From Flavobacterium daemonense (lineage in GTDB: Bacteria; Bacteroidota; Bacteroidia; Flavobacteriales; Flavobacteriaceae), in contig NZ_VJYD01000004.1 of assembly GCF_007341385.1 (NCBI RefSeq), positions 248,001-312,000 of the forward strand: a stretch of 64,000 nt of DNA, given 5' to 3'. The translations under genes were made by a program, and so were the position numbers. Shown here piece by piece: positions 53,032 to 57,293 of this stretch (position 1 is its first letter; every line of letters starts with the position of its first letter). The notes under the pieces are model-generated. The model did not search any database, had not been told where the DNA came from, and saw only the letters and a list, made by a program, of their open reading frames with translations.

Positions 53032-53123
53032 TGTGATATTTTTTTTCTGATTAGGGATTGTAAATATACCTTTTTCAAAATAAAATATATGAAAAATCCG
53101 ACTGCTTTTATTCAAAAAAGAAT

Positions 53124-53174
53124 TAGCCACGAATTCACGAATTTTATTATTATTGATTCGTGAATTCGTGGCTA
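53124..53174. repeat. Perfect CCACGAATTCACGAAT inverted repeat
   Basis: Perfect 19-bp arms at 53124-53142 and 53156-53174 have a 13-nt AT loop, between the esterase and AraC genes. On the minus strand it could end the AraC transcript. Related to the repeats at 22872 and 35022. Confidence 0.88.
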
Positions 53175-53206
53175 AAAAATTATTTAACCAGCAATATAAA
53201 AAAAAA

Positions 53207-54079
53207 CTAACTAATTATAGTCTTGTGTTCTAAACGGTATTGCGACGCGCTTTTACCCGTGTATTGTTTAAAAGATTTGCTGAAATGACTGAAATTATTA
53301 AAACCGCTTTCGTAACAAACTTCATTAATACTCAGCTGTTTTTCGGCTAATAGTTTCGAAGCATGAACTAGGCGATATTCATTTACAAATTCAGTAAATG
53401 TTTTATTCGAAATCTTTTTAAAATAACGGCAAAACGAAGGCGTAGTCATACTAACCAGATTCGAAATCTCGTCAATGGCTATAGATTCCTGAAAATGATC
53501 TTTAACATAATTAAAAACCATATTCATACGATCTGTGTCTTGTGTCTGCAATTCCAACGAAAATCCGTCAGCATTTAAAACCGTATATTCTTCAGATGAT
53601 TCCAATTCATCTAAAATACTCAAAAGTGTCAGCAAGCGCTCAAAAGGAAGCTGGTGCTCCATCATTTCGATTTTTTTGCCAAAATGTTTTTTAGTCTCTC
53701 CGTTAAAAGCAATTCCGGCTTTTGACTGACTAAGAATATTTTGCACCCTTTTCATTTCGGGAGCAACAAAAAAATCGTTTCCTAAAAATTCTGGTTTTAT
53801 ATGAATAACAGTTTCTTTTTTGTTTCCCGTTTGTTCATTTGTAAAACCGCAATGTGGCAAATTTGCACCTATTAATATCAAATCTCCATTCGTGTAATAA
53901 GAAACATGGCTTCCTATTTGTCTTTTTCCCGCACCTCCATTAATATAAACCAACTCAATTTCTGGATGATAATGCCATAAATGGGCTTTACTGTTGGTCT
54001 TTTCGGCATGTTTAGTGTAGGTAAAAGAACTTCCGTATGAGTTTGATATCACTTCAAGAGCTGGGGCGACTGTTTTCAT
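53207..54079 (-). CDS. AraC family transcriptional regulator
   Basis: The start is at 54079 (MKTVAPALEVISNSYG). The 290-residue protein has an N-terminal cupin-type sensing domain (about 20-110; HLWHYHPEIELVYINGGAG, GDLILIGANLPHCG). The C-terminal double helix-turn-helix (about 190-285) has AIDEISNLVSMTTPSFCRYFK and SINEVCYESGFNNFSHFSKSF. It probably senses a sugar or similar ligand. A partial copy of the element found in front of the tandem secreted proteins lies 32-88 bp upstream of its start, so it is a candidate regulator of that cluster. Confidence 0.93.
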   Translation of the reverse strand: MKTVAPALEVISNSYGSSFTYTKHAEKTNSKAHLWHYHPEIELVYINGGAGKRQIGSHVSYYTNGDLILIGANLPHCGFTNEQTGNKKETVIHIKPEFLGNDFFVAPEMKRVQNILSQSKAGIAFNGETKKHFGKKIEMMEHQLPFERLLTLLSILDELESSEEYTVLNADGFSLELQTQDTDRMNMVFNYVKDHFQESIAIDEISNLVSMTTPSFCRYFKKISNKTFTEFVNEYRLVHASKLLAEKQLSINEVCYESGFNNFSHFSKSFKQYTGKSASQYRLEHKTIIS

Positions 54080-54110
54080 GATAATATCTTTAAAAAATAA
54101 TAGCAAATTT

Positions 54111-54167
54111 AACAAAAACACCTAAAATAATTCAAATTTTAACCTATAACGGTTTCGTAACTGAGAA
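54111..54167. promoter_or_regulatory. Partial copy (copy 0) of the conserved upstream element
   Basis: This 57-bp segment matches the distal half of copy 1 at 54374-54430 with only a few differences in the AATTCAAATTTTAACCTATA to CGGTTTCGTAA part, then diverges. It lacks the TTG and TAATTT promoter end. It lies upstream of the araC-type gene, which runs the other way. Confidence 0.85.
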
Positions 54168-54345
54168 TTTTTCATAAAAATCAACACATTACCCTTGCTT
54201 ATTTTACACCAAAACAGCCAATTTTTTCAGGTCTCATTTTTTTATCAATGATTTTTTTCAAATATCATATTTAAAACCGCTTTTTTATACAGATATAGCA
54301 TTTCTGTAAGAAAACCAGAAGATTTTAACAAACGTAATTTTCATC

Positions 54346-54455
54346 AAAACATTGAAAAATAATTGCCCAATTAACAAAAACACCTAAAATAATTCAAATT
54401 TTAACCTATATCGGTTTCGTAAATGAGAATATAGCATAGAAATTGGAAAATAGAG
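54346..54455 (+). promoter_or_regulatory. Conserved upstream element, copy 1
   Basis: About 110 bp are shared with 55200-55309 and 55941-56050. The best conserved part reads CGGTTTCGTAAATGAGAATA followed by TAGCATAGAAAT and ATAGAGTTGTGT. It lies directly upstream of the promoter of the first tandem gene. Confidence 0.9.
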
Positions 54456-54489
54456 TTGTGTTTAAAAAGCAACTGCTGCAGTAATTTTA
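54456..54489 (+). promoter_or_regulatory. Promoter of the first tandem secreted-protein gene
   Basis: TTG (54456-54458), 23 nt, then TAATTTTA (54482-54489). Spacing is identical in the two sister promoters although the spacer sequence differs. Confidence 0.75.
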
Positions 54490-54528
54490 CATCAGAAAAA
54501 TGAACTAAAAATTTAAACATAAAGAAAT

Positions 54529-54933
54529 ATGAAAACGATTTTAAAATTAAGTTTAGTAGTAGCAGTATTATTATCAGGATTAAATACTTATGCAATTAAT
54601 GGTGAAGGAGAATTTGGTCTTCACGTATTAAAAGGAAATGGTAAACTAATGACGTTTGCTTTGAACCAGACAAAAAAAGCTAATTTGTCAATCTACGATA
54701 AAGCAGGTACTTTATTATATACTGAATATGCATCTGGAAAAGATGGTATCTTAAGAACTTTCAGTTTAGAAGAATTCCCAGCTGGAACTTATTATTTAGA
54801 AGTTGAAGACAGCGTTAAAAAAGTAAGACACGAAATTACTATTACTGATGATGCAACTGTTTTATCATCAAAAGCAATTTCATCTGTTTACAAAACAAAT
54901 GCTGCAAAAAATACTAGCGTAGCAGTACGCTAA
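54529..54933 (+). CDS. Small secreted beta-sandwich protein, tandem paralogue 1
   Basis: The 134-residue protein has a signal peptide ending near TYAIN. The mature part is one beta domain: LHVLKGNGKLMTFALNQ, ANLSIYDKAGTLLYTEYA, LRTFSLEEFPAGTYYLEVED, HEITITDD, ending KNTSVAVR. The pattern resembles the C-terminal sorting-type domains of T9SS cargo, but here it is the whole protein. The function is unknown. It is nearly identical in layout to the next two genes and shares their promoter, so the three are recent duplicates expressed together. Confidence 0.85.
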   Translation: MKTILKLSLVVAVLLSGLNTYAINGEGEFGLHVLKGNGKLMTFALNQTKKANLSIYDKAGTLLYTEYASGKDGILRTFSLEEFPAGTYYLEVEDSVKKVRHEITITDDATVLSSKAISSVYKTNAAKNTSVAVR

Positions 54934-55006
54934 AAAATTTATACTCGAACACAGTATAAAAATGAGGTTAGATAGTTAGTAAAGTTTAAAAACCGAAAGG
55001 TTTTAG

Positions 55007-55042
55007 AAACAGCTCTTTGTGGTTATTGAGCTGTTTTTTTTT
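55007..55042 (+). terminator. Terminator of tandem paralogue 1
   Basis: A 9-bp stem AAACAGCTC with GAGCTGTTT is followed by T's. The same hairpin with the same loop TTTGTGGTTATT follows paralogue 3. Confidence 0.9.
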
Positions 55043-55061
55043 GCTTTTTATTTAACCACAA

Positions 55062-55159
55062 TTTTTAACCGCAAAGACGCAAAGGTTTCGCAAGGCTCGC
55101 AAAGTTTAATATAGGTTTGCGAACCTTGCGTTTTTTCTTTGCGTCTTTGCGGTTAAAAA
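55062..55159. repeat. AACCGCAAAGACGCAAAG inverted repeat
   Basis: Perfect 23-bp arms (55062-55084 and 55137-55159) enclose a second weaker inverted repeat (CGCAAGGCTCGCAAA with TTTGCGAACCTTGCG). It lies between the terminator of paralogue 1 and the element of paralogue 2 and is absent from the equivalent gap before paralogue 3, so it was inserted after duplication. Confidence 0.88.
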
Positions 55160-55199
55160 AACCTCTCTTTTGTAAAGAAATCATCAACTCAAAATCACC

Positions 55200-55309
55200 A
55201 AAACATTAAAAAATAATTACCCAATTAACATAATCATTAAATATAATTCAAAATTTAACTTATAACGGTTTCGTAAATGAGAATATAGCATAGAAATCTG
55301 CAAATAGAG
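55200..55309 (+). promoter_or_regulatory. Conserved upstream element, copy 2
   Basis: This is the same element as at 54346-54455, with scattered changes in the distal AT-rich part. The core CGGTTTCGTAAATGAGAATA and the following TAGCATAGAAATCTGCAAAT are unchanged relative to copy 3. Confidence 0.9.
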
Positions 55310-55343
55310 TTGTGTATTTTCTTATATATCATAAGTAATTTAG
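55310..55343 (+). promoter_or_regulatory. Promoter of tandem paralogue 2
   Basis: TTG (55310-55312), 23 nt, TAATTTAG (55336-55343), then CATCAGA as in copies 1 and 3. Confidence 0.75.
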
Positions 55344-55382
55344 CATCAGAGAATTAGATCTATTAATTTAAAAACTAATGCT

Positions 55383-55784
55383 ATGAAAAATTTAAAATTA
55401 AGTTTAGTGTGTGCAGTGCTTTTCACAGGAATGAGCGCTTTTGCAATTGACGGGAACGACAATTTGAATGTTCACGTGTTGAAAACAAATGGTAAACTGA
55501 TCACGTTTGCACTTAATCAAGTTAAAAAAGCAAACGTAGCAATTTATGACAAAGATGGAACGCTTCTTTATTCAGAAAGTGCTTCTGGTAAAGATGGAAT
55601 TTTGAGAACCTTCGACTTGACAGAATTCCCAGAAGGAACTTATTATTTAGAAGTAGAAGATAATGTGAAAAAAGTAAAACATGAAATTACGATTACTGAC
55701 GAAAAAACAGTTTTGTCATCAAAAGCAATTTCATCAGTTTACAAATCAGGATTTTCTAAAAATACAAGTGTCGCAGCACGTTAA
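55383..55784 (+). CDS. Small secreted beta-sandwich protein, tandem paralogue 2
   Basis: The 133-residue secreted protein (signal ends near AFAID) shares its mature domain with the genes before and after (DNLNVHVLKTNGKLITFALN, LRTFDLTEFPEGTYYLEVED, KNTSVAAR). Differences lie mainly in surface-type residues (Lys/Asp/Thr), as expected for duplicates under constraint. The gene carries its own promoter and terminator, so each copy is an independent unit rather than part of one operon. Confidence 0.85.
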   Translation: MKNLKLSLVCAVLFTGMSAFAIDGNDNLNVHVLKTNGKLITFALNQVKKANVAIYDKDGTLLYSESASGKDGILRTFDLTEFPEGTYYLEVEDNVKKVKHEITITDEKTVLSSKAISSVYKSGFSKNTSVAAR

Positions 55785-55830
55785 TGAAGATGTTTGTATT
55801 GAAAAACAAAATTAGATTTTATATTCTTTA

Positions 55831-55870
55831 AGACAGCTTTCTTTTATCAAAGGAAGCTGTTTTTTTTTTT
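55831..55870 (+). terminator. Terminator of tandem paralogue 2
   Basis: A short stem ACAGCTT with AAGCTGT is followed by more than ten T's. It differs in loop from the terminators of paralogues 1 and 3. Confidence 0.85.
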
Positions 55871-55940
55871 GCGACTTTCAAACATCTTAATTTAAAAACT
55901 AGGATTTAGAATCAAAAATCCCCTTATTCTGAGACAGTTA

Positions 55941-56050
55941 AAAACATTGAAGAATAACATGCAATTTAACAAAAACACAAATTATAATTCAAACTTTAAC
56001 CTATATCGGTTTCGTAAATGAGAATATAGCATAGAAATCTGCAAATAGAG
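55941..56050 (+). promoter_or_regulatory. Conserved upstream element, copy 3
   Basis: This is the same element as at 54346 and 55200; the 55785-56123 gap is otherwise only the preceding terminator and this promoter region. Confidence 0.9.
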
Positions 56051-56084
56051 TTGTGTTCAAATACCTATTTGAGGAGTAATTTAG
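56051..56084 (+). promoter_or_regulatory. Promoter of tandem paralogue 3
   Basis: TTG (56051-56053), 23 nt, TAATTTAG (56077-56084), then CATCAGA. Confidence 0.75.
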
Positions 56085-56123: not shown

Positions 56124-56531
56124 ATGAAAAAGATTTTAAAATTAAGTTTAGTATGTGTACTACTTTTCGCAGGAAGCAATGCTTTTGCAATTGACGGGAA
56201 TGACAATTTGAATGTTCACGTTTTGAAAGGAAATGGAAAACTAATTACGTTCGCTCTTAATCAGGTTAAGAAAGCCAATTTGGCGATTTATGACAAAAAC
56301 GGAGAATTGATCTATTCTGAAACTGCTTCTGGCAAAGACGGAATCTTGAGAACTTTTAGCTTAGAAGAGTTTCCAGCAGGAACTTACTATTTAGAAGTTG
56401 AGGACAGTACAAAAAAAGTAAGACACGAAATTACGATTACTGATAATGCATCGGTTTTATCAACAAAAGCAATTTCGTCAATTTATAAAGCAGGTAACGC
56501 TGCTCAAAATACTAGCGTAGCAGTGCGCTAA
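56124..56531 (+). CDS. Small secreted beta-sandwich protein, tandem paralogue 3
   Basis: The 135-residue secreted protein (signal ends near AFAID) is closest to paralogue 2 at the mature N-terminus (GNDNLNVHVLKGNGKLITF) and to paralogue 1 in the middle and end (LRTFSLEEFPAGTYYLEVED, QNTSVAVR). This mosaic similarity suggests gene conversion between copies. No cysteine or catalytic motif is present in the mature domain. The role is unknown. Confidence 0.85.
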   Translation: MKKILKLSLVCVLLFAGSNAFAIDGNDNLNVHVLKGNGKLITFALNQVKKANLAIYDKNGELIYSETASGKDGILRTFSLEEFPAGTYYLEVEDSTKKVRHEITITDNASVLSTKAISSIYKAGNAAQNTSVAVR

Positions 56532-56628: not shown

Positions 56629-56827
56629 ATGTCTTTTTTTTTCCTGAATTTTGTGTTCTTTTATTTTTTCACAAAACAATTCTTAATAATTTTAAAAGTC
56701 TGATTTCTACACTTTTAAAAAATTTCATCAAAATAAATCCAAAAGTACCGTTTTTTCGTAAATACTGTAAGAAAAATACAGAAACATCTTTAATTCAGCA
56801 ACTTAACCGTTTGAAAACGGCTATTTT

Positions 56828-56906: not shown

Positions 56907-57293
56907 ATGACAAAATTTACCAAAATGGGCTTAGCTGCAGCCTTTTTATTTACAACAATTTTTACACAAGCATTTAATGGAAAAGGAGACTATATTTTGA
57001 ATATAGTTACAGGAAACGGAAAAGTAGTAAGCTTTACTTTAGACACTGTTGAAAACAGCTCTTTCTCTATTTATGATGAAAACCACAATTTAGTTTATGC
57101 TGGAGAATCTGCAGCAAATAAACTAGAAATTTCAAAAACCATAAGCTTAGAAGGTCATCCAGCCGGAACTTATGTTTTAGAAGTTACCGAAAACGGTAAA
57201 ATTGCGAAACACGAGATTAAAGTTGCAGCTAAAAAAGTGAAAGCTGTCAAGTTAGACGAATCAGTGAACCAAAGCCCGTCTTTCCGTCGCTAA
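56907..57293 (+). CDS. Small secreted protein, diverged fourth paralogue
   Basis: The 128-residue secreted protein (signal ends near TQAFN) has the same order of strands as the three tandem genes: NIVTGNGKVVSFTLD, SFSIYDENHNLVYAGES, ISLEGHPAGTYVLEVTEN, KHEIKV. It shares well under half its residues with them. The tail is basic (KKVKAVKLDE, SFRR). It has a different, standard promoter, so it is probably expressed under other conditions. Function unknown. Confidence 0.8.
   Translation: MTKFTKMGLAAAFLFTTIFTQAFNGKGDYILNIVTGNGKVVSFTLDTVENSSFSIYDENHNLVYAGESAANKLEISKTISLEGHPAGTYVLEVTENGKIAKHEIKVAAKKVKAVKLDESVNQSPSFRR

Follow-up and report, generated by a model that had tools for sequence, protein, structure and literature searches.

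AraC of E. coli is encoded divergently from its target. It forms a DNA loop between sites about 200 bp apart, as described in PMC6018408. A locus of Flavobacterium daemonense resembles this araBAD-araC arrangement in having a divergent AraC-family gene, a putative operator just upstream of the promoter in a fixed register, and a second, incomplete site at a distance of some 200 bp or more (PMC6018408 gives about 200 bp for E. coli). In contrast to the E. coli system, it would use another sigma factor and a -7-box promoter, and its targets are genes for small secreted proteins rather than catabolic enzymes.

Bacteroidota have unusual promoters that are read by an unusual primary sigma factor. 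The -7 box mapped in F. psychrophilum extends from -12 to -5 (PMC9723704), and a -33 element was found by motif search in Bacteroides thetaiotaomicron (PMC7366714). For F. columnare a native promoter without a -33 was described, where the -33 is not essential and is needed for full activity (PMC2483708). Like other promoters of the primary sigma factor (sigma-A or sigma-ABfr), the putative promoters of our locus contain a -7 box that is TAnnTTTG or close to it and a conserved A at the predicted +1; unlike them, they have no -33 that is fixed across relatives, and an operator at a fixed distance of 38 nt is found instead. The predicted fold of one target protein resembles that of DUF3244 proteins of Bacteroides (BT_3571, BT_1867, BVU_0276) and of T9SS C-terminal domains. 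Here, however, the domain is not a tail on a cargo but accounts for almost all of the mature protein. One paper mentions DUF3244 genes, and does so only in an iron-response table. Our searches of the open-access literature, which used partial term matching, revealed no description of a fixed geometry between activator and promoter in Bacteroidota and no paper on this regulator-target pair; the control switch is apparently unstudied so far.

The locus in Flavobacterium daemonense

The window, i.e. the whole stretch of 64,000 nt that was analysed, contains an AraC-family regulator gene on the minus strand (53207..54079, ATG at 54079; HTH_18 C-terminus, cupin-like N-terminus), divergent from three tandem paralogues for small secreted proteins on the plus strand. 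Gene 1 (54529..54933) encodes a DUF3244-like protein of 134 aa, and genes 2 (55383..55784) and 3 (56124..56531) encode paralogues of 133 and 135 aa; their DNA is 71-80% identical over 300 nt. Upstream of each of the three genes, a conserved block of about 110-120 bp is followed by TTG, a spacer of 23 nt and TAATTT, while a fourth, more distant paralogue at 56907 is without the element. The operator cores of copies 1, 2 and 3 lie at 54413..54443, 55267..55297 and 56008..56038. They are followed, likewise on the plus strand, by TTG and spacer at 54456..54481 (TTG 54456-54458, spacer 54459-54481), 55310..55335 (TTG 55310-55312, spacer 55313-55335) and 56051..56076 (TTG 56051-56053, spacer 56054-56076). 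With TAATTT beginning at 54482, 55336 and 56077, the gap of exactly 23 nt that a preliminary description had claimed was found in 3/3 copies. The hexamer is part of the putative plus-strand -7 boxes TAATTTTA (54482..54489, copy 1), TAATTTAG (55336..55343, copy 2) and TAATTTAG (56077..56084, copy 3). Transcription is predicted to start at 54494, 55348 and 56089, the first position following from the -7 box register of -12 to -5 given in PMC9723704.

Conservation of the upstream block, claimed in the same description, also held, as over 121 nt the blocks of copies 2 and 3 share 88% and 84% identity with that of copy 1. A further copy that had not been listed there, copy 0 (54079-54199, 76% identical), abuts the start of the regulator gene. 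Its core (54151..54181, plus strand) is without a forward -7 box at 38 nt, and the second half of its operator is degenerate. On the minus strand, TAAATTTG (54104..54111) is conserved in copy 0 and, as deduced from the consensus, may serve the regulator gene as its -7 box.

Two intergenic inverted repeats, a perfect one of 23 bp (55062-55084 / 55137-55159) and a perfect one of 20 bp (53123-53142 / 53156-53175), are repeat-like or terminator-like. The sequence CTGTAAGAAAA followed by CAGAA is common to 56745-56790, upstream of the paralogue at 56907, and to 54300-54325 in the interval between copies 0 and 1.

Distance between putative operator and -7 box

Comparison within the genus shows a fixed geometry. 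From the end of the operator core to the box the distance was 38 nt in 252/260 copies and 39 nt in three (L149, L151, L176), and five copies had no box; this count used the pattern TA..TT followed by TG, AG, TA or TT at offsets 36-40 only and excluded the 67 regulator-proximal copies of the window and of L068-L135. Among these 67 copies no box at 36-40 was found in 51, a box at 38 in seven (including the single-element regions L091 and L133), at 37 in seven, at 36 in one, and at both 37 and 39 in one. The five boxless copies (L140, L142, L143, L145, L187) are all regulator-proximal and belong to one side lineage; L140 has TAATTCAG at 38. When 110 nt were scanned without conditioning on the box, using a narrower pattern, the distance was 38 nt in 210/250 and 39 nt in one, with the misses being mostly regulator-proximal copies or copies with another box type. 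In 50 side-lineage and distant regions of the genus the box was at 38 in 46 and at 39 in three, and one (L166) had none. Regions L181-L185 carry a further operator copy and gene beyond the far side of the regulator gene, at about 1.4-1.6 kb (6 kb in L185), where the box is still at 38.

The sequence between operator and box was analysed in 258 forward copies of the genus. Since this set, like the logo profile, holds only copies with TAnnTT at 38, it cannot itself prove the distance. Pairwise identity between the 23-nt spacers has a median of 43%, compared to 29% expected at random from composition and to 91% for the operator in the same copies; there are 234 distinct spacers, forming 46 clusters at 70%. 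The earlier term "sequence-free" is slightly overstated, as the ends of the spacer (TG... and ...CTGAAG) are weakly conserved. Because the spacer is near random and its length constant, constant length with drifting sequence holds and is not due to chance, and we agree with the preliminary description that the length looks selected. The distance from box to ATG likewise varies little within the genus (46-49 nt in 229/253 copies), so that the spacer is not the only part of constant length. Downstream of the box, the 5' leader (CAGAGAATTAGAAC..., 54494-54528 and equivalents) is partly conserved.

Species variation at the position of the box gives its identity. The variants TAATTTAG, TAATTTTA, TAACTTTG, TATCTTTG and TAAATTTG match TAnnTTTG or differ from it by one or two bases, which bears out the earlier assignment of TAATTT to a -7 box. 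The sigma-A -7 box feature is present in the window, where TAATTTAG and TAATTTTA are each one base off TAnnTTTG. An ECF-type -10 motif (CGT, as in the promoters described in PMC9723704) was not found at the TAnnTTTG-like box. The register mapped in F. psychrophilum (PMC9723704) would place the start on an A that is conserved in 95% of the genus sample, and the TTG at -38 to -36.

The TTG behaves differently from the box. It is present at N23 in 179/258 genus copies, with weighted fractions of 72% in near and 11% in distant copies, and in only 3/31 distant copies. These come from L146-L185, whose regulators are no more than 75% identical, and they retain the 38 nt between operator and box. A fixed TTG or TTTG near -33 is therefore absent in these distant relatives. 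The strongest columns of the genus profile are those of operator and box, and the G just before TTG reaches 1.84 bits compared to 0.39-0.85 bits for TTG. The constant distance had been taken as the mark of a -33/-7 pair, which does not agree with the loss or displacement of TTG in most of the distant copies. As judged from the aligned copies, TTG is not the fixed partner, and the locked distance is that from operator to -7 box.

It could still be argued that TTG and TAATTT are the -33 and -7 elements of a normal sigma-A promoter, whose spacer of 23 nt would be unusually long and whose upstream block would be an add-on. The retention of TTG in the near set is in line with this, as are the -33 element of B. 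thetaiotaomicron (PMC7366714) and the need of a -33 for full activity in F. columnare (PMC2483708). However, the behaviour of the distant copies, the stronger conservation of the preceding G, and a TTG that would sit at -38 to -36 argue against such a promoter, which we regard as unlikely. That the region is transcribed, and that the constant spacer belongs to an RNA leader or hairpin, is barely credible: an inverted repeat of 5-6 bp occurs in 2/3 window spacers, but the mean longest stem was 3.09 in the 234 distinct spacers and 3.09 in shuffles, and the hairpin was rejected. Common descent after a recent duplication alone, with no constraint on length, would fit the paralogy of genes 1-3. It has just as little to recommend it, since the length is constant although spacers are near random across species and genera, and since boxes listed along the whole stretch included one at 38-39 in each of 53 loci outside the genus (four of them duplicates).

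Regulator, candidate targets and relatives beyond Flavobacterium

The regulator was identified as a member of the AraC/XylS type by its HTH_18 domain (PF12833, E=9e-21, 74.4 bits, cut-off 33.6); its N-terminus gave 24.8 bits for Cupin_2, below the cut-off of 27.2. Orthologues at E<=1e-90 occur in 149/398 genomes of the genus, and matches to the element at E<=1e-4 in 117/398. We fetched 120 stretches next to the regulator or the element (119 genomes, G162 twice), and among 121 stretches including the window 120 contained the regulator. A comparison of the two lists by eye found 109/117 element-match genomes also in the regulator list. The eight others are G044, G067, G161, G246, G311, G328, G360 and G381, of which three were inspected: G044 has a partial regulator match in a locus of 1998 bases, and the matches of G311 and G161 are of low complexity, with no regulator or target nearby. 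In the genome of the window the operator pattern with at most three mismatches matched four times, always at this locus, with no match for the reversed-pattern control; the genome-wide search proposed earlier thus confines the element to this place. The best DNA match elsewhere in the genome (C26:374829, E 0.016) lies inside an apparent ribonucleotide reductase CDS and was taken as chance.

The linkage extends to the targets. Behind the 258 forward copies of the genus 253 genes could be read, all of which belong to one family, and outside the genus the same family was recovered by sequence search in 47/53 loci, the regions for this count having been fetched via regulator or element and not via target genes. 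The three proteins of the window score 28.3, 28.3 and 21.4 for DUF3244 (PF11589), compared to the Pfam cut-off of 25. The predicted structure of the gene 3 product has a mean pLDDT of 75, with 62/135 residues at 90 or more, and an eight-strand fold; its top Foldseek matches are 3sd2, 4g5a and 3d33, with the RemA-CTD (8gl6) at rank 13, and the best E value was 0.0019, so none reached 0.001 or better. In outgroup loci (L191-L297) the target often has about 195 aa and apparently two sandwich-like halves, and others have 117-126 aa; the lineage of the window has the form of 133-135 aa in tandem.

Orthologues of the regulator were found in 225/397 genomes of the family (E<=1e-60), in 40/395 of the phylum (E<=1e-75), and, in a named collection, among the best 80 of 589. 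Loci of other genera were taken from the family (27), the phylum (13) and the collection (26, four duplicating family loci), and they are the best-scoring relatives listed rather than a random draw. With a consensus from Flavobacterium only, TAnnTT was at 38 behind the best operator match in 39/53 other-genus loci (including the four duplicates), and the strict TAnnTTTG in 23/53 compared to 1/1060 shuffles. A refined operator consensus gave a box at 38 nt in 58/62 distinct other-genus loci and at 39 in 4/62; the choice of operator match depended on the operator score and not on the box, but since the consensus was written after seeing these loci, it is not independent of them. The 62 loci, which leave out the duplicates L260, L280, L286 and L293 and the same-genus L306-L310 (box at 38 in 5/5), include Pedobacter (Sphingobacteriia), Sinomicrobium, Arenibacter, Muriicola, Cellulophaga and six from another family of the order. 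In the other-genus regions, matches to the box pattern occur at a density of 0.0044 per position. In these loci the distance from regulator to operator varies from 60 to 135 nt, and that from box to ATG is mostly 20-71 nt. For 20 regulators of 43-54% identity the pattern fades, as ten have the box at 38 behind the best operator match, with operator scores close to the level of shuffled sequence. The combination of site, distance, regulator and gene type is found again in distant Bacteroidota, which points to an old control switch.

The deep part of the operator is GGTTAATATAGCATAGAAATTGGAAAAT, the sole part common to loci beyond Flavobacterium, while the upstream part CCTATAACGGTTTCGTAAA is strongly conserved in Flavobacterium and without conservation outside the genus. 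The C-terminal HTH region is much alike in 12 regulators of 43-67% identity. Support was weak for tandem half-sites about two turns apart, as expected for an AraC-type dimer. Within the genus, the best shift was 19 bp, with a column-permutation p of 0.006 for all 258 copies, 0.014 for the near and 0.25 for the 31 distant copies; outside the genus the best shift was 21 bp (p=0.15). A 21-bp tandem repeat in the genus, our first guess from the logo, was discarded (p=0.32), since 19 bp did better when the profile was compared with itself. By eye, block A (CCTATAACGGTTTCG) was considered as a possible inverted half-site.

Proposed control and the regulator-proximal copy

We consider it probable that the operator is bound by the AraC-family protein encoded beside it, and that this protein keeps RNA polymerase on a -7-only promoter for small DUF3244-like secreted proteins. 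From the patterns described above we infer the binding of the regulator, activation rather than repression, the half-sites, the start sites and the biological role. The conserved block would be the operator of the divergently encoded regulator. The regulator, probably as a dimer, would occupy two half-sites from about -70 to -36 and contact RNA polymerase with the Bacteroidota primary sigma factor, the promoter mainly needing the -7 box TAnnTTTG. Operator and box would be kept 38 nt apart, with the DNA between them free to drift, because this contact is rigid. In the lineage of the window, target gene and operator would have been triplicated, and copy 0, beside the regulator, would have lost its forward promoter. 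Of the two roles proposed earlier for the block, activator or sigma-factor target, it does look like the target of a regulator, most likely the neighbouring AraC-family protein, whereas a sigma-factor target is unlikely. Since regulator, operator and target family share one geometry in genera as far apart as Flavobacterium and Pedobacter, a reporter strain is suited to studying how activators and this sigma factor work together. The system could show whether an activator replaces the -33 contact, and the family of secreted proteins gains a candidate regulator.

Another protein, either an ECF sigma factor or an unlinked regulator, might bind the operator, with the AraC gene as a mere neighbour. 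As no clear equivalent of the strongly conserved CCTATAACGGTTTCGTAAA is seen outside the genus, this part of the operator may be bound by a second factor. Against a foreign binding protein speak the confinement of the operator to this locus in the genome of the window, the 109/117 element-match genomes on the regulator list, the operator and box upstream of the regulator in 62/62 loci outside the genus (all found through the regulator), and a -7 box that is sigma-A-like and not of ECF type; we regard such a protein as quite improbable. It is less far-fetched, if still doubtful, that the regulator is a repressor, or both repressor and activator, acting from the same sites. E. coli AraC does both, as described in PMC6018408, and copies 0 and 1 are spaced by 260-263 bp in 65 two-element genomes. 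However, no -33 is conserved and the operator lies upstream of the -7 region, not over it, and this arrangement suits activation.

In 39 regions a copy is located 60-80 nt from the regulator start and none at 325-345; it is often the sole copy and has a forward box, and some of these regions carry further copies elsewhere. A single regulator-proximal copy with a forward box looks like the ancestral state. The 65 two-element regions were selected by position, with one copy 60-80 nt and another 325-345 nt from the start of the regulator, which allows 245-285 bp between them, and the observed distance from copy 0 to copy 1 is 262 bp in 45, 261 in nine, 263 in nine and 260 in two. Without that selection, a copy lies 331-335 nt from the regulator start in 67/69 regions (window and L068-L135). 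The next copies follow at varying distance, with 271-1330 nt from the stop of gene 1 to copy 2. Copy 0 of the two-element regions has retained its upstream half together with the box that the regulator gene putatively uses as its -7 element, while its second operator half is degenerate.

Since a partly decayed second operator is found 260-263 bp away in one clade of 65 genomes, a DNA loop is possible; 262 bp corresponds to about 25 helical turns at 10.5 bp. In this large Flavobacterium clade the regulator might bridge copies 0 and 1 over the length-fixed 262 bp and switch to the half-sites of copy 1 to activate, which we propose tentatively and hold to be rather unlikely. The likeness to the loop of E. 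coli AraC is a lead and not a test. The interval between copies 0 and 1 has a median ungapped identity of 63% (45 of equal length); the left part of copy 1, which is conserved, falls within it, as do further conserved motifs. As it is not sequence-free, its constant length may have other causes. If true, the loop would be a Bacteroidota counterpart of the ara loop, and the locus an independent case of an activator replacing the -33 contact, and of looping, with a phylum-specific sigma factor. Phased A-tracts were considered by eye in these 262 bp, where the two-element clade also conserves TGTAAGAA.
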